The translations under genes and the position numbers were made by a program. The notes below the pieces were generated by a model, which worked only from the letters and a program-made list of their open reading frames with translations, did not search any database and was not told the origin of the DNA. Of a DNA stretch of 64,000 nucleotides, positions 48,195-57,895 are shown piece after piece; position 1 is the stretch's first letter, and each line of letters begins with the position of its first letter. Location: assembly GCF_000423085.1 (NCBI RefSeq), contig NZ_AUHH01000002.1, positions 62,001 to 126,000 on the forward strand, written 5' to 3'. The stretch comes from Granulicoccus phenolivorans DSM 17626 = NBRC 107789 = JCM 15570 (lineage in GTDB: Bacteria > Actinomycetota > Actinomycetes > Propionibacteriales > Propionibacteriaceae).

Positions 48195-49720
48195 TGAAGA
48201 CGCAGGCCGATCTGATTGCCCGGGCCCGGGGCGCGCTGGCGGCCCTGGGGGTGTCCCCGGATCGGTTCACCCCGCCCGGTGCCGGCACGCTGGACGCCCG
48301 GTCACCGCTGACCGGCGCCGCGCTGTTCGGCGTACGCGGGCACCCTCGCGAACAGGTGGAGGCGGAGATCGCGCAGGCGCAGGAGGCCTTCCGACAGTGG
48401 CGGATGACGCCGGCCCCGGTTCGCGGCCGGCTGGTGAAACGTCTGGGCGAACTGATCGCCGAACACAAGCAGCACCTGGCCGACCTGATCACCATCGAGG
48501 TCGGCAAGATCACCTCCGAGGCGCTCGGGGAGGTGCAGGAGATGAGCGACGTCTGCGATCTCGCCGTTGGGCTCTCTCGGCAGTTGTTCGGCCGCACCAT
48601 GCCCTCGGAGCGGGTGGGGCACCGGCTGCAGGAGGTGTGGCACCCGCTCGGGGTGGTGGGGGTGATCTCGGCGTTCAACTTCCCGGTGGCGGTGTGGTCC
48701 TGGAACACCGCGATCGCGCTGGTGTGCGGGGACGCCGTGGTGTGGAAGCCCTCGGAGCTGACGCCGCTGTGCGCGCTGGGCTGTACTGCCCTGCTGGAGC
48801 GGGCCGTGGTCGAGACCGGGGCGCCGGCCGGGGTGCATCGGGTCCTGCTCGGCGGCCCCGAGGTCGGCGAGCAACTGGTCGACTCGCCGATGGTGCCGCT
48901 GATCAGCGCGACCGGGTCCACCCGGATGGGCCGGCGCGTCGGCCCCCGGGTCGCCGCCCGGCTGGGCCGCTCGCTGCTGGAACTCGGCGGGAACAATGCG
49001 GTGGTCCTCACCCCGTCGGCCGATCTGGGGCAGGCGATCGACGCGATCGTCTTCGCCGCCGCCGGAACCGCAGGCCAGCGGTGCACGTCGCTGCGCCGGC
49101 TGATCGTGCACGAATCGATCGTCGAGGAGGTGGTGGCCCGGGTGTCCGCGGCGTTCGACCGGCTGCCGGCCGGCGACCCGTTCGACCGGGCAACCCTGCT
49201 GGGCCCACTGATCCACGAGCGGGCGCACACCGCCATGCAGGCGGCGCTGAGCGCAGCCCGGGCGCAGGGTGGGCAGGTGCTCTGCGGCGGCGACCGGATC
49301 GAGACCGGGATGCCCGGGGTGTGGGTACGCCCCGCGCTGGTCCGGGTCCCCGAGCAGACCGGGATCGTGCTCGAGGAGACGTTCGCCCCGATCCTCTATG
49401 TCCTCAGCTATCGCGACTTCGAGCAGGCGCTGGCGCTGCACAATGGGGTCACTCAGGGCCTGTCGGCCGGGATTTTCACCCGCGATCTGGCCGAGGCAGA
49501 ACGCTTCCTCGGCCCCGACGGCGCCGATACCGGGATCGCGAATGTCAATGTGGCGACCTCCGGGGCGGAGATCGGCGGCGCCTTCGGTGGTGAGAAGGAC
49601 ACCGGCGGGGGTCGGGAGGCCGGCTCGGACGCCTGGCGGGCGTACCTGCGGCGCTCGACGGCGACCATCAACCACTCCGGTGCGGTGCAGTTGGCCCAGG
49701 GGGTGCACTTCTCCGGGTGA
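48191..49720 (+). CDS. Aminoadipate-semialdehyde (piperideine-6-carboxylate) dehydrogenase, ALDH7-like
   Basis: NAD-dependent aldehyde dehydrogenase of 509 residues. Landmarks: VVGVISAFNFPVAVWSWNTAIAL, VWKPSELTPL, SATGSTRMGRRVG, LELGGNNAVV (general base Glu), AAGTAGQRCTSLRR (catalytic Cys), EETFAPILYVL and SGAEIGGAFGGEKDTGGGREAGSD, close to ALDH7/AmaB enzymes. It should oxidise the semialdehyde formed by the lysine aminotransferase. The last codons (GVHFSG, stop at 49720) lie inside the left direct repeat of the downstream island, so the final residues may have been supplied by the inserted DNA. Confidence 0.93.
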   Translation: MMKTQADLIARARGALAALGVSPDRFTPPGAGTLDARSPLTGAALFGVRGHPREQVEAEIAQAQEAFRQWRMTPAPVRGRLVKRLGELIAEHKQHLADLITIEVGKITSEALGEVQEMSDVCDLAVGLSRQLFGRTMPSERVGHRLQEVWHPLGVVGVISAFNFPVAVWSWNTAIALVCGDAVVWKPSELTPLCALGCTALLERAVVETGAPAGVHRVLLGGPEVGEQLVDSPMVPLISATGSTRMGRRVGPRVAARLGRSLLELGGNNAVVLTPSADLGQAIDAIVFAAAGTAGQRCTSLRRLIVHESIVEEVVARVSAAFDRLPAGDPFDRATLLGPLIHERAHTAMQAALSAARAQGGQVLCGGDRIETGMPGVWVRPALVRVPEQTGIVLEETFAPILYVLSYRDFEQALALHNGVTQGLSAGIFTRDLAEAERFLGPDGADTGIANVNVATSGAEIGGAFGGEKDTGGGREAGSDAWRAYLRRSTATINHSGAVQLAQGVHFSG

Positions 49721-49750
49721 GGGCCCAAAACCTGAGGCGCGCAGAAAACG
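49701..49750 (+). repeat. Left end repeat of the inserted island
   Basis: GGGTGCACTTCTCC at 49701-49714, then a two-base difference, then GTGAGG and, further on, GCGCGCAGAA. The same pattern recurs at 57444-57490. The left copy includes the aldehyde dehydrogenase stop codon. A partial third copy (CACTTCTCCCGTGAG) lies at 49820-49834. Confidence 0.65.
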
Positions 49751-50052
49751 TAAAGGCCTTGCCTAGCAGCGGGCTAGGAACACTCCCATCCAGTTCGACC
49801 CGTGGCGCCGGGTGACTGACACTTCTCCCGTGAGAGCCAGCCCGTACAGCGGACGGCCGTCGGTAGCGCCAGGCCGGTTCAGCACGTAGTAGGGGTGCCG
49901 TGTGGGCTGCGAACTGGGCGTCCCGTCCGGTCGACGCCGTGAATCGTGGCGATCGGCCGCCGAAGAGCGTTGATCGAGGTGACGATCGCGGCCATGGCAC
50001 CATCCTGAAAGTGGGGGGAGGCAGTCTCACCTCGACCACCGCCCCGACCACG

Positions 50053-51108
50053 TCAGCTTCCCAGAATGGAGCGAGCGACCTGGTTCGCTCCTGAGATCGG
50101 GTTGGTGGCGCTGATGTTCGCGGGCAGGCTGATCCGGAACGTGACCGACTGCGTCTCGACATGGTGGTGGGTGGCGACGTCGTCGCGTCGGAGCACCTCG
50201 ATCGCAGGATCGGTCATGTCGTACCCCCTGAAGAACGCAACCGTCAAGTTGAACGTGAACGGGGCGTCGTGCCGCATTGAGGCGTGGTCGTAGCCGAACC
50301 CGGACTCGGACCCGTAGCGCCCCACGCGAGTGAGGAACTCTGGGACCTGGCTAACATTGCCCGTGGCGTCGAGCCTGTCAACGATTCGCTGCACCAAGGT
50401 CGGGATCGAGATTGTGTTCACCCCGGCATCAGCGCGCTGGAGCCCGACGCTGACCAGTAGGAGGCGATCCTCGGTCAAGGTGCCGTTTTCGCCCTCTGAG
50501 GGCTCGATCTGGTGGACGCCCTGGACCATGTGGCTCGACGTAGAGCGCATGGTGGTCTTCAGTTCGACGCCAGTCCCGTCCCAGTGGAAGTCGCGTGCTG
50601 AGCGGCGCCAGCCATCCCAACACTGGACGACCGGCCCGACCTGACTGGTATCTGCCTGGCTACACAGGGAATTGAGCAGCAGGAGTTCTCCCGCGAGCCC
50701 CACCAACGCCGACTCGGAGAGGATGAGTCGCTCGATAGCGAGTTCTACGATCGGTTCGGTAACGCGGAACGCCTCCTCAAGGTCCTGGTCAGCGCCGTTG
50801 CGCAGCAGTTCAGTGCAGATGAATGCGGCGACCGGGTCGAAGTGCCCCAGGGCTGGCATCAACAAGCGGTTCGCCAGGAGCGGGCCACCGGCCTTGCGGT
50901 GCCACGTGTGATACTCCAGCGACTCACGGACCGTGGCGGAGGCAGCTTCCAACTCCACACCGGCGAGAAATACTTCAAGGCGACCAGCATGGTCTCGGGC
51001 GACGCCGACCACCTCGGCGAGTGTCGTCCACTTGATGTCGCGGACCCCGCCTGCAACTGAACTGGGAACTATAGCGATGTCTTTGAGGATGTCCTCGTAA
51101 CTCGGCAC
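50053..51108 (-). CDS. PD-(D/E)XK motif protein (DUF4420-like), putative restriction nuclease
   Basis: Protein of 351 residues starting MPSYEDILKDIAIVPSS. The nuclease core is recognisable: GLAGELLLLNSL with Glu141 in the first core helix, then ARDFHWDGTGVELKTTM with Asp173 and the Glu182-Leu-Lys184 of the E-x-K strand. This is the layout of DUF4420/PD-(D/E)XK proteins that accompany Z1-domain proteins. The C-terminal half (DRLLLVSVGLQRADAGVNTI; VTFRISLPANI) is beta-rich. It is the last gene of the operon, starting 13 bases after the Z1 gene stop. It is expected to be the DNA-cutting component; target unknown. Confidence 0.8.
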   Translation of the reverse strand: MPSYEDILKDIAIVPSSVAGGVRDIKWTTLAEVVGVARDHAGRLEVFLAGVELEAASATVRESLEYHTWHRKAGGPLLANRLLMPALGHFDPVAAFICTELLRNGADQDLEEAFRVTEPIVELAIERLILSESALVGLAGELLLLNSLCSQADTSQVGPVVQCWDGWRRSARDFHWDGTGVELKTTMRSTSSHMVQGVHQIEPSEGENGTLTEDRLLLVSVGLQRADAGVNTISIPTLVQRIVDRLDATGNVSQVPEFLTRVGRYGSESGFGYDHASMRHDAPFTFNLTVAFFRGYDMTDPAIEVLRRDDVATHHHVETQSVTFRISLPANISATNPISGANQVARSILGS

Positions 51109-51121
51109 TTGTTCGCCTTCC

Positions 51122-53923
51122 TCATATCCTCACGGCGCCGGCCCGGGTTGCAGCGAACTGCTCCGGGCCGCCGGCTGGCAGGGAGACACCTACGGCGACA
51201 GCCGGGTGGACCTGGCCAGGCCTCTGGTTCACGTAGAATAGGATCAGTCCATCGGAGCCGATGGGACGCCATCCGGAGTCGCCGGCCCGGGTGGGCACTG
51301 TTGCGCCGCGGTGGTAGTAGTCGAAGAACTCGTCGCCACGGTACTGGCCCGGACCTGCACTGGGGTCATTGGAGCCCCAGGCAGTGGTGATTTCACCAGC
51401 CTCCACACTCTTGGTGGTGGCCAGGACAGTGAACGGAAGTCCGGACAGAACTCCAGTACTCACCGCTGCCCCGCCGCCGTACCGAATGCCAATCCAGAAA
51501 CGGGGCTGGTCCTGCTGCTTCAGAGCGAGGTCCGACATGGACCACAAGTCAGCCGGACGACCGGTCACGAAGAGGCCACGAACGGGCCTGGTAAGACAGG
51601 CATCCCAAAGGCGGAGGTACGCCGCGATCGAGTAAGGGCAGACCGGGCGAACATCGGACGGAGTGCTTGGAGGGAGGGGCGCGCGATAGAGGCCAGGCGA
51701 AGCCAACGGCTGGATCGCAGCCAACCTCGCCTCCACTTGTGCCCACTGCTCTGCGAGCTGGTGGTCGCGGCCAGGCCTGTAGCCTGCGAAGTCGAGCGAG
51801 TCGAGGAGTTGGGCTGCCTCGACGAGGTTCAACGGGGTGCTACGAATGCGCCCTCGGGTGTGGCCGACGACGAGGTCAGACGACGGCTGCTGGTGGAAGA
51901 GTTCGGCCAGCTTCTGCACGTTCGGGTCGGGCTGAGCACCGTTGTTGATCAGCCGAACGAACGGCCGGGATCCGGGGCTCAGTGGCCGCTGACCGAGGTT
52001 GGCAATCTTGCCAGTGGCCAGGAAGCTCATGCCTTGGAGCACCACCGGGTCGGGGGCGTCCCCAACCATCTTCTCGGTGATGGCGACACGGACGGCCTCG
52101 TCCATGTCATGGTAGGCACGGAAGAGGTCGAGTTGGTCGGGATCGGCGAAGACCCGGCACAGTTCGATGTAGGCACCTCGGTAGCCGAACCAGCGCTGCA
52201 TCTGCATCTGGGTGTCGGCGAGAGGGTTGGCCGAGGACCTCTGGAACAATGCAGTGGTCATGCCCTCCAATGTCAGGCCACGCGCCATGACGTTGCCGGA
52301 TACGAAGATCGTCGACAGGTCTCGGGCGGGACGCCACTTACCAGTCTCTGGGTCCAGGGTCGGCTTATAGAGCGGGCGGTCGTCGGCTGCAGGGTCGCTG
52401 TTGACGACCGAAACTCGGGTGCCGGGGATGACCTCATCGACAAGCAGTGCCTCGATCGTCGCCCAGTCGGGGAATGGCGTCGGGTTCAACAGGTTGAACT
52501 CGGTCTCGATCTCCCGCGCCGAGTGACGATAGTGATCCAACCACAGTGCCCACTTTCCGGGGTCAGCGATCAGCGACGCGATCAACGAGTCCGGGAGCCG
52601 CGCGTCACCAGTCTCCAGCATGGCTCGGGCTGTCGACCGGTCAGGAACCCCGGCCCAGAGTAGGACATCCTCGGCTCCCTGGAAGTGGTCGGTGATCGTT
52701 GCCGACGGGTGGAAGAGCATTGAGTGCGGGGGGGCGACGCCGCTCACCGCTTCCTGCTCACTGTCGAAGGAGAGACCTGCCGCAGCGCACGGTCCGGATT
52801 TTCCTGACCGGTGCAGCCGGATAGCGCCGGCTACGAGGAACGCGCGCACGGCTTCAGCAAGGTCTTGATCCTGAATGCCTGTGATCGGCTGGCAGAGCGC
52901 GGCTTGAGCTCCCCTGCGGTAGAACACCTCGCCCCCGGTGTAGAAGGCGTGGGAGCCCGCTGGCTCGGGGTATGTCGAGGAGCGCGGCGCATCGAGGTCG
53001 CCGGGGTTGGTCGGATCGACCGGGTGGCCCACGTCGAGAGGCGTGCGCAGGGAAATGATGAAGTCGCGCGGAGCGAGCGGGTTATGGTCTTCCTGCAGCA
53101 GGTTCGCCTGCGGCGTGGCGGTGTAGCCGATGTAGGTCGTGAACAGGTTGGACGGCGCAGGCTGCGGAGGGTCCCATAAGTTAGCAATAGCACGCGGGAC
53201 CTGCTTCAGGTTACCGAAGACCGGGTGCTGGCCAGCCTCGACGCGGGCGTCAAGGATCGAGCCATCGTCAGCCTCATCGTCGAGCACCAGCATGTGCACG
53301 GGGCGGTCGAGTTCGTTCATCGCGTCAAACACGCTAGTCTTGAGTGCCCGTCCGAGGGTGTGGAGGTGGTCGGTGTGCTTCATCGCCACGACGATGATTG
53401 GATTGTTATCCTCAAACCGGCGTCGGACCGCTGCGGACGCCATCTGGTAGGTGCTGGCCAGAGGCAAAGGCTCCTCGGCCAGGACCACGTCAGGGGTCGG
53501 GACTAGCAGTCGTCGAGAAACCTTCTGGGCATTGAACTCGCCCCCGTCCAGTTGGGTCGCTAAGCGCTCGAAGGTCTGACGCCACAGCGACAGCCGGGTC
53601 CCGGCGAGGACAACCAGGACATCGACACCTGCGTCGAGGGCCAAGGCGCTTACGCCGAGCATCGACGCGGTCTTGCCCGACTGAACCGACCCCATCACCA
53701 AGCCGGTGCGCACGCGGCTGATCGGCCAGGTGTGCTCGTCGGGCTCCCCATCCCCCAATATGCCTCGTTGGAGTATGTACCTGGAGTCTGCTTCGAGCGC
53801 TGCCCGCGCAGTCGGAGAGAGCCACATCAGGGCCTTCGAGTATCGCGCCCACCAGCCCTCCACCAGCCGCTCAGAAGGTGGCGGATCGAAGTAGACGCGT
53901 TCGGTTCCGGGAGTTGCCTGCAT
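51122..53923 (-). CDS. Z1-domain P-loop ATPase/helicase-like protein
   Basis: Protein of 933 residues. Near the N-terminus MGSVQSGKT (78-85) is a Walker A motif and MLVLDDEADDGS (215-219 DDEAD) a Walker B, as in superfamily 2 enzymes. The central Z1 region has GNVMARGLTLEGMTT and QMQMQRWFGYR, the family's equivalent of helicase motifs V and VI. The C-terminal 250 residues include RFWIGIRYGGGAAVSTG and a late WGSNDPSAGPGQYRGDEFFDYY. Z1 proteins are known from restriction-like systems alongside MutL-type ATPases. The start follows the DUF262 stop by 10 bases. It probably translocates on or opens DNA to license cleavage by the neighbour (inferred). Confidence 0.85.
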   Translation of the reverse strand: MQATPGTERVYFDPPPSERLVEGWWARYSKALMWLSPTARAALEADSRYILQRGILGDGEPDEHTWPISRVRTGLVMGSVQSGKTASMLGVSALALDAGVDVLVVLAGTRLSLWRQTFERLATQLDGGEFNAQKVSRRLLVPTPDVVLAEEPLPLASTYQMASAAVRRRFEDNNPIIVVAMKHTDHLHTLGRALKTSVFDAMNELDRPVHMLVLDDEADDGSILDARVEAGQHPVFGNLKQVPRAIANLWDPPQPAPSNLFTTYIGYTATPQANLLQEDHNPLAPRDFIISLRTPLDVGHPVDPTNPGDLDAPRSSTYPEPAGSHAFYTGGEVFYRRGAQAALCQPITGIQDQDLAEAVRAFLVAGAIRLHRSGKSGPCAAAGLSFDSEQEAVSGVAPPHSMLFHPSATITDHFQGAEDVLLWAGVPDRSTARAMLETGDARLPDSLIASLIADPGKWALWLDHYRHSAREIETEFNLLNPTPFPDWATIEALLVDEVIPGTRVSVVNSDPAADDRPLYKPTLDPETGKWRPARDLSTIFVSGNVMARGLTLEGMTTALFQRSSANPLADTQMQMQRWFGYRGAYIELCRVFADPDQLDLFRAYHDMDEAVRVAITEKMVGDAPDPVVLQGMSFLATGKIANLGQRPLSPGSRPFVRLINNGAQPDPNVQKLAELFHQQPSSDLVVGHTRGRIRSTPLNLVEAAQLLDSLDFAGYRPGRDHQLAEQWAQVEARLAAIQPLASPGLYRAPLPPSTPSDVRPVCPYSIAAYLRLWDACLTRPVRGLFVTGRPADLWSMSDLALKQQDQPRFWIGIRYGGGAAVSTGVLSGLPFTVLATTKSVEAGEITTAWGSNDPSAGPGQYRGDEFFDYYHRGATVPTRAGDSGWRPIGSDGLILFYVNQRPGQVHPAVAVGVSLPAGGPEQFAATRAGAVRI

Positions 53924-53933
53924 GATCTTTCCG

Positions 53934-55835
53934 TTAGTCGTTGGAACCGGGAGGGATGATCATGGACCGGAGCGACTCAAACCCCGAGGAACCGAACTGG
54001 CTCCGAACAGCGGCCGAGGCCACGGCGGGGTCGATCCCGAGGAAGCCGACGAGTTCGGTGGCGATGCGGGCGATGTAGTCCCACTGCGTCTTAGTTTGGG
54101 TTTTCGCGATGCGCTTCCATTGGGTCTTGCTCGCGTTGAAGATCGCGTCCGCGTTCGCCTCGATCCGATCCTCAATGTCTGCCGGGGACGCCGCCATGGC
54201 GAACGACAGGCCGACCAAGGACCCGACCAACTGCAGTTCCTGCCACTTAACGCCCCTATCACCATCCTTGAACGCCGGAGCCCAGAGTTCGTCATGACGC
54301 ATGTGCATCTCGACGACGTCTGAGATCCACTTGAACAGCGTCGCCAAGGTCGAGTTGTGCCGGAGCGGATGGTTCGGGTCTTTGTCCGCGCCACCGACCT
54401 CTTCCAGAAGTTGGTCGATGTGTTTGGCGGTGGATGTCAACGGCTTTCCTTTGGTGTCACGCAGGAGCACCGCCAGGATCCACGAGAGCACTTTTGTACG
54501 CTTGTAACGCAAGTCGCCGAACCCGTAGTCCTTCAAGGTCTTGCCGAGCTTTTCGAGGCCTGCGACGCCCACGAGCGCCCCGTTCGCGATCTGGTCGGCC
54601 CGAGTCCCGGGGGCGGCGTCACCGGCCGCGAACAGCGTCGCAGGCATCAAGGTCACCTCGTGGTACACCGCATTGCGGATCTCCTCCGCATTCAGATGTA
54701 CGCCCTGCTTGTTGTAAAGCTTGAACACCTCGTGGATCTGACGCTGGGTGGCTTCGAGATACTCGATCACAGGGATCTGGTAGTCGGGGGCGCCTTCGAA
54801 CAGTTCCTCGACGTCGATCACTTGACCCGACACCCTGATCCGCTTATCGCGGATTTGGGTGTAGTACTTCCCTTGGAGCGATTCGAGGTACTCCCCGGCC
54901 AGCCCGCCCTCGGCGTTGTTGCGCAGCTTGAACGGGAAATAGTACTCGTCTTCGAGCTTGGTGGTGAGCGTCTCCTTCTCAAGGACCTTCCACGCTCGCT
55001 TGAAGGCCGGGTAATCCCGGGTGAACAGGGTGGACAGATGCTTGTCCTTGTGGCGGTTGTCTGCTTCCTTGACCTTCTCCAACGCGCGTGGATGCATCCC
55101 CACGAAGCGAAGGATCGCTGTGAGGCGCTGCTTCCCGTCGACAACCTCGTGCGTCGTCGCGCCCTCGGTGCGCAGCAGGATCAGAGACGGCAGTGGGATG
55201 CCTCGTAAGATCGACTCGATGAGCGCCTGCCGGTCACCGGTTCGCCACACGTCCCCTCGTTGGTAGGAGGGCGTCAGGTTCAGCTTCTTCTTGGTGAGTT
55301 GAAGTATGTACCACACAGCAGCCTTGGCCGACACGGGCTTCAGGCTGTCGGTCTCGGCGACCGCGTCCTCCTCCTCCGCCCAGGCCTCGGACCAAGAGTT
55401 GGTCGCGTCAGCCCGGCTGAGTCCGGTGGTGTCGATGTCCTCGACGAACTTCTGCTGGAGGCGCACCGCCGTCTCAACCCGGTGGTGGAGCTTCTCAACT
55501 GACCGGGGCGAGAGCTGTTTTGTGCCGCTGCCGACCTCGAAAGCATCGGCCGTCTCAACCCCGAGCTCGTCGGCCAGAGCTTCGATGAAGTCGCCGTAGG
55601 ACTCGGAGGGCAGATCCCCGTCGAACGCAAGCCAGCCCTGCACGTCGCTGAGACGGTGAGTCCACCCGTCGGTGGTGAAGTCCACGTCATCACGACTGAA
55701 CATGGAAGCGGTCACGGAGACCCCCTCTGGGACATGTGGTGACTCCGATAGCGTCATGAGCCCATCCCCGATGCTCTCCCACATCTGGGACCTGGTGTCT
55801 TCCTCGAAGTCGAGGTCTTCGATGTCGAGATTCAT
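53934..55835 (-). CDS. DUF262 (ParB/Srx-fold) protein with a novel N-terminal region
   Basis: Protein of 633 residues. The DUF262 core starts near residue 165: LTPSYQRGDVWRTGDRQALIESILRGIPLPSLILL with YQRGDVW at 191-197, then HEVVDGKQRLTAILRF with DGKQRLT at 233-239. This motif binds nucleotide in the ParB/sulfiredoxin-like fold and is shared with GmrS, BrxU and other defence nucleases. The C-terminal half is helical (LYNKQGVHLNAEEIRNAV; HPLRHNSTLATLFKWISDVVEMHMRHDELW). No HNH (DUF1524) motif is apparent. Residues 1-165 match no family I recognise. It overlaps the methyltransferase stop by four bases. It occupies the slot held by MutL/AIPR genes in related systems. Confidence 0.8.
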   Translation of the reverse strand: MNLDIEDLDFEEDTRSQMWESIGDGLMTLSESPHVPEGVSVTASMFSRDDVDFTTDGWTHRLSDVQGWLAFDGDLPSESYGDFIEALADELGVETADAFEVGSGTKQLSPRSVEKLHHRVETAVRLQQKFVEDIDTTGLSRADATNSWSEAWAEEEDAVAETDSLKPVSAKAAVWYILQLTKKKLNLTPSYQRGDVWRTGDRQALIESILRGIPLPSLILLRTEGATTHEVVDGKQRLTAILRFVGMHPRALEKVKEADNRHKDKHLSTLFTRDYPAFKRAWKVLEKETLTTKLEDEYYFPFKLRNNAEGGLAGEYLESLQGKYYTQIRDKRIRVSGQVIDVEELFEGAPDYQIPVIEYLEATQRQIHEVFKLYNKQGVHLNAEEIRNAVYHEVTLMPATLFAAGDAAPGTRADQIANGALVGVAGLEKLGKTLKDYGFGDLRYKRTKVLSWILAVLLRDTKGKPLTSTAKHIDQLLEEVGGADKDPNHPLRHNSTLATLFKWISDVVEMHMRHDELWAPAFKDGDRGVKWQELQLVGSLVGLSFAMAASPADIEDRIEANADAIFNASKTQWKRIAKTQTKTQWDYIARIATELVGFLGIDPAVASAAVRSQFGSSGFESLRSMIIPPGSND

Positions 55836-57235
55836 GTGATGGCTCCAAGCGGTTCACGGGTCGGGTTGATCTTCGACGTACGGAAGGTTGTCACCGGTCC
55901 GGGGAGGCCCGTCAACAAGGGTTTGGCGATCGCTTCCACAACCCTGGCGTTGACGGCGTTGCCGAGGGCCTTGTAGGCGTCAAGGTCACTCCCAGGCAGT
56001 TCGATGTCGCCGAGGCTCTGGAGTTCGGCACACTCACGCGGAGTCATGTACCGGCGCAGGCCGGCGAGCTTGGCCCCCAAGATTGGCACCTGAGTCTGGG
56101 TGAACGCGATAAGGCTGGGCGCCGTCGTCGGACGTTTGATGCGTAGCCCCGAGGCGCGCACCTGAAGCACGAAGTTGTCAATGTCGCGCACCTCGCCCTG
56201 CGCATTCCACTCCATCTTCTGGAAGCTCGACGGGAAGGTCCACGGCTGCCACTCGTTCAGCCACGGGGTAATCCAAGAGGCGTTGTCCCGGAAGAACTCG
56301 CGGTTCTGTCGGATGAAGGTCTGCTTCCAGCGCGGGAACTGGAAGTCCCCTTCGCGACGTGCGTGGCTCGGGATCAACTCGTATTGCTCGGGGATCCTCA
56401 GGCCGTCAAGAGCGAAGCCGAAGCTGCCCTTGAAGCGCATCCCGCTCAGCCCGTACCTGCTACGGCGTGCCCAAACACCCGGGGGCGTCTCCTCCTCATA
56501 TGGGTACGTGGCATCGAACTCCATAGACCAGATCGGGAACGACGGCATCTTCAGCGACGCGGGGGAGCGCTTGAGAAAGTCACCCCACATGTCGATGGCC
56601 TTGAGAGTCAACTCCGGGATGGGACGAGTAGTCGGCACGTCCCGGCGCACCACCGACGTGATGTCCGTGCCCTCCTTGTGCTTCTTGGGCCAGGTGAAGG
56701 TGTCGAGGCCGTCCAGGGAGCCCACGAAGTAGGCGCGGTCACGCACCTGGGGGATGCCAAACTCATGTGGCGAGAAATGTCTGATGTCCACGTCATAGCC
56801 GAGCGCACGCAACTCGGCGACAATCGTTTCGACGGTTCGTCCACCGTCGTGCTTGAGGATGTTGGGAACGTTCTCCAGTATCAATCGACCAGGCCGTTTC
56901 ACCTTGAGGATCTGGAGGACCTTGAAGAACAGATTCCCCTGGGTAGTGTCGGCGAAGCCCAACTGGTCTCCGGCCTTGGAGAACGGTTGACACGGAAATC
57001 CGGCAGCAAGGACCGCGTGGTCGGGCACCTCCCGGCGGATGTCGTCGTCGGTCTCGAGCCCGTTGATGTCAGTCCAAGCGGGCAGTCCGTAGTTCGCCGT
57101 GTAGAGCTTGTTCAGCGTGGGTTCCCACTCTGCAGCGAAGACAGCTTCGCCTCCCAGATTCTCCAACGCCACGTGAAATCCGCCGAGCCCCGCGAAGAGG
57201 TCGACGAAACCGAAGGTCGGTGACTTCATCCCCAC
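55832..57235 (-). CDS. dcm: DNA (cytosine-5-)-methyltransferase
   Basis: C5-cytosine methyltransferase of 467 residues. Motif I VDLFAGLGGF (11-20) binds SAM; motif IV GFPCQPFSKAGDQLGF holds the catalytic Cys82; motif VI ENVPNIL (121-127); motif VIII IPQVRDRAYFVG (161-172); motif X GNAVNARVVEAI near the C-terminus. The target-recognition region between VIII and IX is about 190 residues, long enough for sequence-specific recognition; the target is unknown. It is the first gene of the island operon and should protect host DNA from the co-encoded nuclease. Upstream promoter not confidently identified. Confidence 0.93.
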   Translation of the reverse strand: MGMKSPTFGFVDLFAGLGGFHVALENLGGEAVFAAEWEPTLNKLYTANYGLPAWTDINGLETDDDIRREVPDHAVLAAGFPCQPFSKAGDQLGFADTTQGNLFFKVLQILKVKRPGRLILENVPNILKHDGGRTVETIVAELRALGYDVDIRHFSPHEFGIPQVRDRAYFVGSLDGLDTFTWPKKHKEGTDITSVVRRDVPTTRPIPELTLKAIDMWGDFLKRSPASLKMPSFPIWSMEFDATYPYEEETPPGVWARRSRYGLSGMRFKGSFGFALDGLRIPEQYELIPSHARREGDFQFPRWKQTFIRQNREFFRDNASWITPWLNEWQPWTFPSSFQKMEWNAQGEVRDIDNFVLQVRASGLRIKRPTTAPSLIAFTQTQVPILGAKLAGLRRYMTPRECAELQSLGDIELPGSDLDAYKALGNAVNARVVEAIAKPLLTGLPGPVTTFRTSKINPTREPLGAIT

Positions 57236-57443: not shown

Positions 57444-57490
57444 GGGTGCACTTCTCCCCGTGAGGCCCACAGCCGACGACGCGCAGAACG
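57444..57490 (+). repeat. Right end repeat of the inserted island
   Basis: GGGTGCACTTCTCC at 57444-57457, then CC, GTGAGG-CCCA and GCGCAGAACG, aligning with 49701-49750. In one frame it still reads VHFSP and stop, the expected end of the aldehyde dehydrogenase, suggesting this copy preserves the pre-insertion 3' end of that gene. Confidence 0.65.
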
Positions 57491-57522
57491 CAGAAATGCC
57501 CCGCCGGAGCGGGGCATTTCTG
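57491..57522. terminator. Terminator of ssrA
   Basis: A perfect 14-bp inverted repeat (CAGAAATGCCCCGC and its complement) around CGGA, directly after the tmRNA 3' end on the minus strand. It can also stop plus-strand transcription coming from the aldehyde dehydrogenase side. Confidence 0.85.
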
Positions 57523-57527
57523 CACGG

Positions 57528-57895
57528 GGGTGGAGGTGCGGGGAATCGAACCCCGGTCCTCGAAGGGTGACGCAGGACTTCTCCGGGTGCAGCCGACTAG
57601 ACGGTTTTCTCGGCTCCTGCACTCACGTCAGCATGTTGCAGCCAAGCCCAGCTCAGGAAAAGTCCCTCACTGACCTCCGAGCACGGTCAGTGAAGCAAGC
57701 CTTCTGAATGAGGCCAGGAACCGGACGGAAGGCACATCCGGGCTGACCCTTCGATCACTGCTCAGGCAGCGAGAGCGAAGTCAGTGCGCTTAGAGTTGGC
57801 ACTTATTGGTTTCCACAGAGCGTTTACGAGATAACTGTGGGTCCTCGACCCGCTTCCCCTGGGACTACCGCCCCAAGTCGAAACCGATCACCCCC
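57528..57895 (-). ncRNA. ssrA: tmRNA (ssrA)
   Basis: One-piece tmRNA of about 367 nt. The 5' end GGGGGTGATCGGTTTCGAC (from 57895) pairs as a 7-bp acceptor stem (GGGGGUG/CACCUCC) with the 3' end, and the T-arm reads GGGGTTCGATTCCCC. The tag frame is at 57762-57800 and encodes ANSKRTDFALAA then TGA, ending in the usual protease-recognised ALAA. The terminal CCA appears not to be fully encoded (ACCC follows the acceptor stem). It rescues stalled ribosomes together with SmpB, whose gene lies 1.4 kb away on the same strand. Confidence 0.97.

Follow-up and report, generated by a model that had tools for sequence, protein, structure and literature searches.

A DUF262-containing branch of the Z1 restriction-like systems, exemplified by a four-gene locus of Granulicoccus phenolivorans

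Four adjacent genes of Granulicoccus phenolivorans encode a C5-cytosine DNA methyltransferase (MTase), a DUF262 protein, a Z1 protein, and a DUF4420 PD-(D/E)XK protein, and judged from their sequences they are a horizontally moving, DNA-defence-like system. Related loci are spread over at least five bacterial phyla, their Z1 proteins form a clade of their own, and the GHKL ATPase of other Z1 systems is nearly absent from them. The best explanation, to which we assign a probability of roughly 0.68, is that the four genes together specify a single ATP-dependent restriction-modification-like immune system, which would be gated by the DUF262 NTPase.

The locus lies in a 64,000-nt stretch of contig NZ_AUHH01000002.1 (positions 62,001 to 126,000), which was analysed as a whole and is called the window here. 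All four open reading frames are located on the minus strand (Table 1), and the tight packing described in the first-pass annotation is exact according to their coordinates, with a 4-nt overlap followed by gaps of 10 and 13 nt. The four family labels given there all correspond to Pfam matches above the curated cut-offs, and the residues that had been singled out (Cys82 of the MTase, Lys84 of Z1, Lys184 of the nuclease, and the DGKQR motif of the DUF262 protein) are found at the right positions and are conserved. Both GHKL and AIPR genes are absent from the locus, as had been noted, and the search of the remaining genome revealed no AIPR, no GHKL-type HATPase_c_3 match above the cut-off, and no second Z1. 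PADLOC delivered nothing beyond isolated matches to single genes (generic methylase, DUF262, and Z1 models of other systems), so that annotation would miss or split such systems.

Table 1. Features of the locus, with coordinates in the window
Feature	Coordinates	Strand	Basis
DUF4420 PD-(D/E)XK nuclease (predicted), 351 aa	50053..51108	-	PF14390, E 8e-17
Z1 SF2-type DNA translocase/ATPase (predicted), 933 aa	51122..53923	-	PF10593, E 8e-25
DUF262 (GmrSD_N, ParB/Srx-fold NTPase) protein, 633 aa	53934..55835	-	PF03235, E 1e-25
C5-cytosine DNA methyltransferase, 467 aa	55832..57235	-	PF00145, E 7e-58; Cys82 in PCQPFS
tmRNA gene ssrA	57529..57895	-	ARAGORN
Imperfect direct repeat, left copy (end of aldehyde dehydrogenase gene and downstream region)	49701..49773		local alignment
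Imperfect direct repeat, right copy (adjoins end of ssrA)	57444..57513		local alignment

The catalytic motifs of the MTase, the Z1 protein, and the nuclease are intact. Cys82 of the MTase is part of the motif GFPCQPFS, the best PADLOC model is a DruM-type MTase (E 3e-72), and the matches in the PDB include the HhaI and HaeIII MTases. The Z1 protein carries the SF2 helicase Z1 motif DThhQXuRhFG (ADTQMQMQRWFG) and, along its chain, a Walker A motif (GSVQSGKT, residues 78-85), LDDEADD (214-220), TATPQ (268-272), RGLTLEG (548-554), and QMQMQRWFG (572-580). Its Walker A (Lys84 included), DDE-DD, TATPQ, and RG-T/QRWFG motifs are invariant in 66 sequences. A Z1 profile had no match among PDB sequences. 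For the AF2 model of Z1 (pLDDT 88, pTM 0.85), the best Foldseek match is HsdR of EcoR124I (E 5e-6), with the Type ISP enzyme LlaBIII also below E 0.001, while VIA aligned it with Mfd (Z 15.7), RIG-I, and FANCM at Z values of ~14-16 over ~350 residues (~3.8-4.1 Å). According to this model, Z1 is an SF2 motor whose nearest Foldseek neighbours are restriction subunits of Type I and ISP. By motif and Pfam match, the DUF4420 protein looks like an RE-fold nuclease of the E-D-ExK type, whose catalytic set (E141, D173, and E182-x-K184, the ExK) is invariant in 67 sequences.

The DUF262 protein, for which PF03235 is the sole Pfam match, consists of a helical N-terminal domain (residues 1-165), the DUF262 domain (~170-390), and an all-helical C-terminal domain. 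Its motifs YQR (191-193), DGKQR (233-237, which stands for DGQQR), and FxxxN (371-375) are conserved among relatives, with D233, G234, Q236, and R237 being invariant. A DUF1524/HNH domain was not detected by Pfam, and the C-terminal domain, all helical in the model, shows no invariant His/Asn set. When the DUF262 profile was compared with PDB sequences, the matches were weak, with BrxU ranking first. With Foldseek alone, the AF2 model (pLDDT 90, pTM 0.70) matched nothing under E 0.001. In VIA it was aligned with SspE (Z 8.5, 174 residues, 4.7 Å), BrxU (Z 8.2, 304 residues, 14.8 Å, a fit which implies that the domain arrangement differs), ParB proteins (Z ~6), and DndI (Z 5.3, 298 residues, 5.6 Å). 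These Z values are modest, yet the top rows are the families expected from sequence.

Scanning one genome for each species yielded 78 loci, of which 76 Z1 loci with DUF262 were left after the removal of duplicates. Judged by record title, they are distributed over Actinomycetota, Alpha-, Beta-, and Gammaproteobacteria, Myxococcota, Planctomycetota, and Chloroflexota (at least five phyla). The gene order DUF262, Z1, and RE on one strand is kept in 76/76 loci (two contigs end before the nuclease gene), and the DUF4420 nuclease lies directly 3' of Z1 in 74/76, the other two being contig ends. A C5-MTase gene is present within 6 kb in 73 of the 76 loci, either upstream on the same strand (53), downstream on the opposite strand (11), upstream on the opposite strand (6), or downstream on the same strand (3), leaving three with none. 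Vsr endonuclease, which commonly accompanies m5C MTases, is encoded in 25/76. The Neorhizobium (Alphaproteobacteria) plasmid NZ_CP147997 has the same Dcm-DUF262-Z1-PD(D/E)XK order at 39-49% identity; in this copy (L031 7651-13596) the MTase and Z1 frames are each split in two, for which decay or sequencing errors are possible causes. Two pattern scans of viral contigs found no relatives, a result that says little given the few patterns used. A ParB-like protein (PADLOC PD-Lambda-5_A-like) together with a ~310-aa protein without assigned function was observed near the system in five loci (L031 14826-16867, L071, L075, L089, and L116); this pair is probably a separate defence unit.

For comparison, 139 Z1 neighbourhoods were assembled from the 76 loci with DUF262 and 63 others, most of the latter being retrieved by searching 395 genomes of the window's class with Pfam Z1, and the rest stemming from some family members and plasmids. 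A GHKL gene is found in 1/76 DUF262 loci vs 32/63 other Z1 loci (Fisher 7e-13), and an AIPR gene in 0/76 vs 14/63 (Fisher 6e-6), values that are descriptive because common descent links the loci and most were selected by Z1 subtype, which makes the p-values overstate independence. The mutual exclusion of DUF262 and MutL/AIPR, which had been proposed as a test, is thus supported. Among the DUF262-type loci, L107 (3149-5954) alone has GHKL within 6 kb, in a gene that overlaps the end of a divergent C5-MTase gene. Annotated MZA-like operons follow the order GHKL-Z1-RE-AIPR, and the earlier suggestion that DUF262 holds the place of GHKL agrees with its location directly upstream of Z1. In a 140-tip tree, the DUF262-type Z1 proteins (two contig-end loci included) form one exact split with a support of 1.0 and a branch of 1.27; the support refers to the unrooted split, and a value of 0.215 stems from re-rooting. 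The idea of a distinct subtype is supported.

Two further classes were observed among the Z1 neighbourhoods. One of them (L181, L196-L206, L216, and L218-L220), which is devoid of GHKL, AIPR, and DUF262, combines Z1 and PD-(D/E)XK with ~630-aa and ~300-aa proteins that lack a Pfam match; the larger of these has a PADLOC PDC-M33A match, and Vsr and an MTase are often present. The other (L033 1595-10538; L209, L210, L213, and L221-L223) consists of a GHKL ATPase, PD-(D/E)XK, and Z1 with the nuclease gene before the motor gene, and several of its members start with a ~1100-aa sacsin/TmtA-like protein.

The unit, with a GC content of ~0.62-0.65 vs ~0.70 in the flanks, sits between an aldehyde dehydrogenase gene and ssrA, just past the 3' end of the latter. 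An imperfect direct repeat of ~74 bp occurs at both ends of the unit, with a local alignment score of 69 compared to a shuffled maximum of 48, and the first 25 nt of its left copy were also picked up in a separate repeat search; target duplication or a recombination scar are candidates for its origin. No integrase gene was found between the two repeats, and it is therefore composition, repeats, and position that support the term island used in the first-pass annotation. That claim stands in part, as no clean empty site emerged from ten family members: an empty site at ssrA was sought there and the pre-insertion state was not recovered, while the smpB-FKBP-DUF4870-ssrA neighbourhood is kept in these ten and an aldehyde dehydrogenase gene beside ssrA occurs in 0/10. 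The nearest relative found, in Serinicoccus (L045, Z1 83% identical), adjoins a ribonucleotide reductase gene in a locus without tmRNA, and its presence at another site indicates that the system has moved between sites.

A natural exchange within the system provides a clue to how its parts may interact. Three loci (L054, L056, and L058, from Pusillimonas, Acidovorax, and a marine gammaproteobacterium) were compared with L050, L052 (Curvibacter), L053, and L060. Between the two groups, identity is ~82-92% for the MTase, the nuclease, and the part of Z1 after residue ~240, whereas it is 53-57% for DUF262 and ~63% for Z1 residues 1-200. In the trees of DUF262 and Z1 1-200, the three loci branch as a clade of their own outside the remaining proteobacterial systems (support 1.0), whereas in those of the MTase, Z1 240-933, and the nuclease they fall inside the proteobacterial systems. 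The exchanged DNA block extends from the MTase/DUF262 junction to around Z1 codons 205-260. The simplest reading of this new finding is recombination, by which the DUF262 gene and the first ~200-260 Z1 codons would have been swapped as one cassette. Since DUF262 is kept with the RecA1 part of its motor, the two are likely co-adapted and probably touching, with the first RecA-like domain of Z1 as the probable docking site of DUF262. In CglI, the DEAD domain of the motor likewise serves as a docking surface, there for the nuclease (PMC4267653). MTase genes have also been exchanged apart from the core (L098/L122 and L059/L061). No sequence-recognition domain was identified in the restriction proteins, and the search for a segment of these proteins that tracks the target-recognition region of the MTase gave weak and inconsistent partial correlations (≤0.44 overall, ≤0.22 for close pairs), for which reason no segment is claimed as specificity determinant.

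In the mechanism that we favour, the C5-MTase would mark self DNA with m5C, Z1 would translocate double-stranded DNA as an SF2 motor, and cutting by the DUF4420 protein would follow once the motor is activated. The ParB-fold NTPase DUF262 would bind Z1 at its first RecA-like domain and decide between engagement of the motor-nuclease assembly with DNA and its release, in the place occupied by GHKL (MORC/MutL-type) ATPases in sister systems. This explanation draws on the gene order (76/76), the linkage to MTase (73/76) and Vsr (25/76), the invariant catalytic residues, the matches of the Z1 and DUF262 models, the GHKL/AIPR exclusion, the monophyletic Z1, the cassette exchange, and the CglI literature. 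Counted against it are that no recognition domain was identified, that no segment tracks the MTase target region, that the DUF262 model has no Foldseek match under E 0.001, and that L107 has a GHKL gene; the independent exchange of MTases sits awkwardly with any need for a common target sequence. In the modification-gated NTPases SspE and DndI, the self mark raises DUF262 hydrolysis and frees the protein from self DNA (PMC9646914, PMC11662687), and by analogy a similar self-mark role may be imagined here. In this more specific form, DUF262 would have replaced the GHKL ATPase, would read the m5C self mark much as SspE and DndI do with phosphorothioate marks, and would license the Z1 translocase-nuclease, a possibility that we put forward tentatively and regard as doubtful. 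If true, it would describe a methylation-gated system in which the sensor and the first RecA domain of the motor form an exchangeable cassette.

A rather unlikely alternative is plain ATP-dependent restriction of the CglI/NgoAVII kind, in which the complex recognises an unmethylated site, translocates, and cuts, with DUF262 having a structural or housekeeping role and sensing nothing. CglI manages with a C5-MTase, a nuclease, and a Z1 motor and needs neither DUF262 nor GHKL (PMC4267653), and the Z1 and nuclease motifs are intact here; yet the invariant NTPase motifs of DUF262, its position directly before Z1 throughout the DUF262 clade wherever upstream sequence is covered, and the modification-gated behaviour of SspE and DndI all speak against this reading. 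Another alternative is a modification-dependent (Type IV-like) system, in which modified cytosines of foreign DNA would be detected by DUF262 and trigger the motor-nuclease, the MTase doing no more than marking these sites or competing for them. GmrSD and BrxU, which have the same DUF262 fold, cut modified-cytosine DNA (PMC10952713), BrxU acts on m5C DNA too (PMC12707154), and the DUF262 model matches BrxU. However, an m5C-dependent nuclease should be toxic to a cell that has a C5-MTase of its own, the system is persistently accompanied by MTase and Vsr, and a DUF1524 nuclease domain was not found, which makes this reading improbable.

We give even less weight to an abortive-infection sensor, whose DUF262 would detect a phage product and whose nuclease would destroy host and phage DNA: the exchange of the DUF262 cassette with an unchanged MTase is what would be expected for a module under phage pressure, but the tight C5-MTase/Vsr linkage points to DNA marking and not to protein sensing. 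That unrelated defence genes came together by chance, for which the low-GC island beside ssrA could speak, has a negligible probability. The same order recurs on the Neorhizobium plasmid, and its conservation in 76/76 loci across five phyla indicates that the neighbourhood is not due to chance, so that the survey contradicts the outcome that would have undone the first-pass proposal. Among all of these readings, the immune system gated by DUF262 is thus the one we prefer.

Under the preferred reading, the Z1 restriction family, previously GHKL-driven, would be widened to include DUF262-driven systems. Two unrelated NTPase folds in one slot allow the role of this slot to be tested directly, and the natural cassette exchange, in which MTase and nuclease are unchanged, points to an interface and offers ready-made chimeras.

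The broad class of systems with a Z1 SF2 helicase, an RE-fold nuclease, Dcm/Vsr, and an interchangeable GHKL ATPase was described by Iyer, Abhiman, and Aravind in 2008 (PMC2292703). As a correction to the comparison with Mza-type systems made in the first-pass annotation, the general class itself dates to that work. The DUF262 version was absent from PADLOC, NCBIfam, and the literature searched (with subscription papers and REBASE outside the scope, which leaves priority uncertain), and experimental work on any DUF262-type Z1 system was not found in this literature. The third type of MORC/paraMORC restriction operons likewise features a Z1 motor, an E-D-ExK partner, a C5-MTase, and Vsr, and the MZA-like members of the 2008 class carry their regulatory ATPase gene directly upstream of Z1, as is the case for DUF262 here. 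In contrast to those operons, GHKL is absent in 75/76 of the present loci, a ParB-fold DUF262 protein is found instead, and the Z1 proteins form a separate clade. The predicted system thus belongs to the 2008 class by motor, nuclease, MTase, and Vsr, and not by its ATPase. With MZA it shares the homologous pair of MzaC (Z1) and MzaD (PD-(D/E)XK); an assignment to MZA was rejected, as the scores against the PADLOC and NCBIfam models reach 115 of 1500 bits for MzaC and 21 of 420 for MzaD (cut-offs), and neither MutL/GHKL nor AIPR is present at the window locus.

An experimentally studied Z1 relative is CglI/NgoAVII (PMC4267653, PMC5737866), which shares the C5-MTase, a separate nuclease, and an SF2 motor with a Z1 domain. 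In CglI, the DEAD domain contacts the nuclease, and triplex displacement supports translocation (PMC4267653, PMC5737866). It was rejected as the system type because its published nuclease is PLD + B3 and its three genes include no DUF262, whereas four genes with a DUF4420 PD-(D/E)XK nuclease are present here. The DUF262-DUF1524 proteins GmrSD, BrxU, SspE, and DndI share the QR, DG(K/Q)QR, and FxxxN motifs and a helical region after the DUF262 fold; GmrSD was rejected since here no HNH/DUF1524 was found, an extra N-terminal helical domain is present, and a motor and a separate nuclease lie alongside. Finally, the SF2 motor fold is shared with the Type I enzymes, of which EcoR124I HsdR is the nearest Foldseek match, whereas in the predicted system the nuclease resides on a separate chain and a C5 MTase takes the place of HsdM, without an HsdS.
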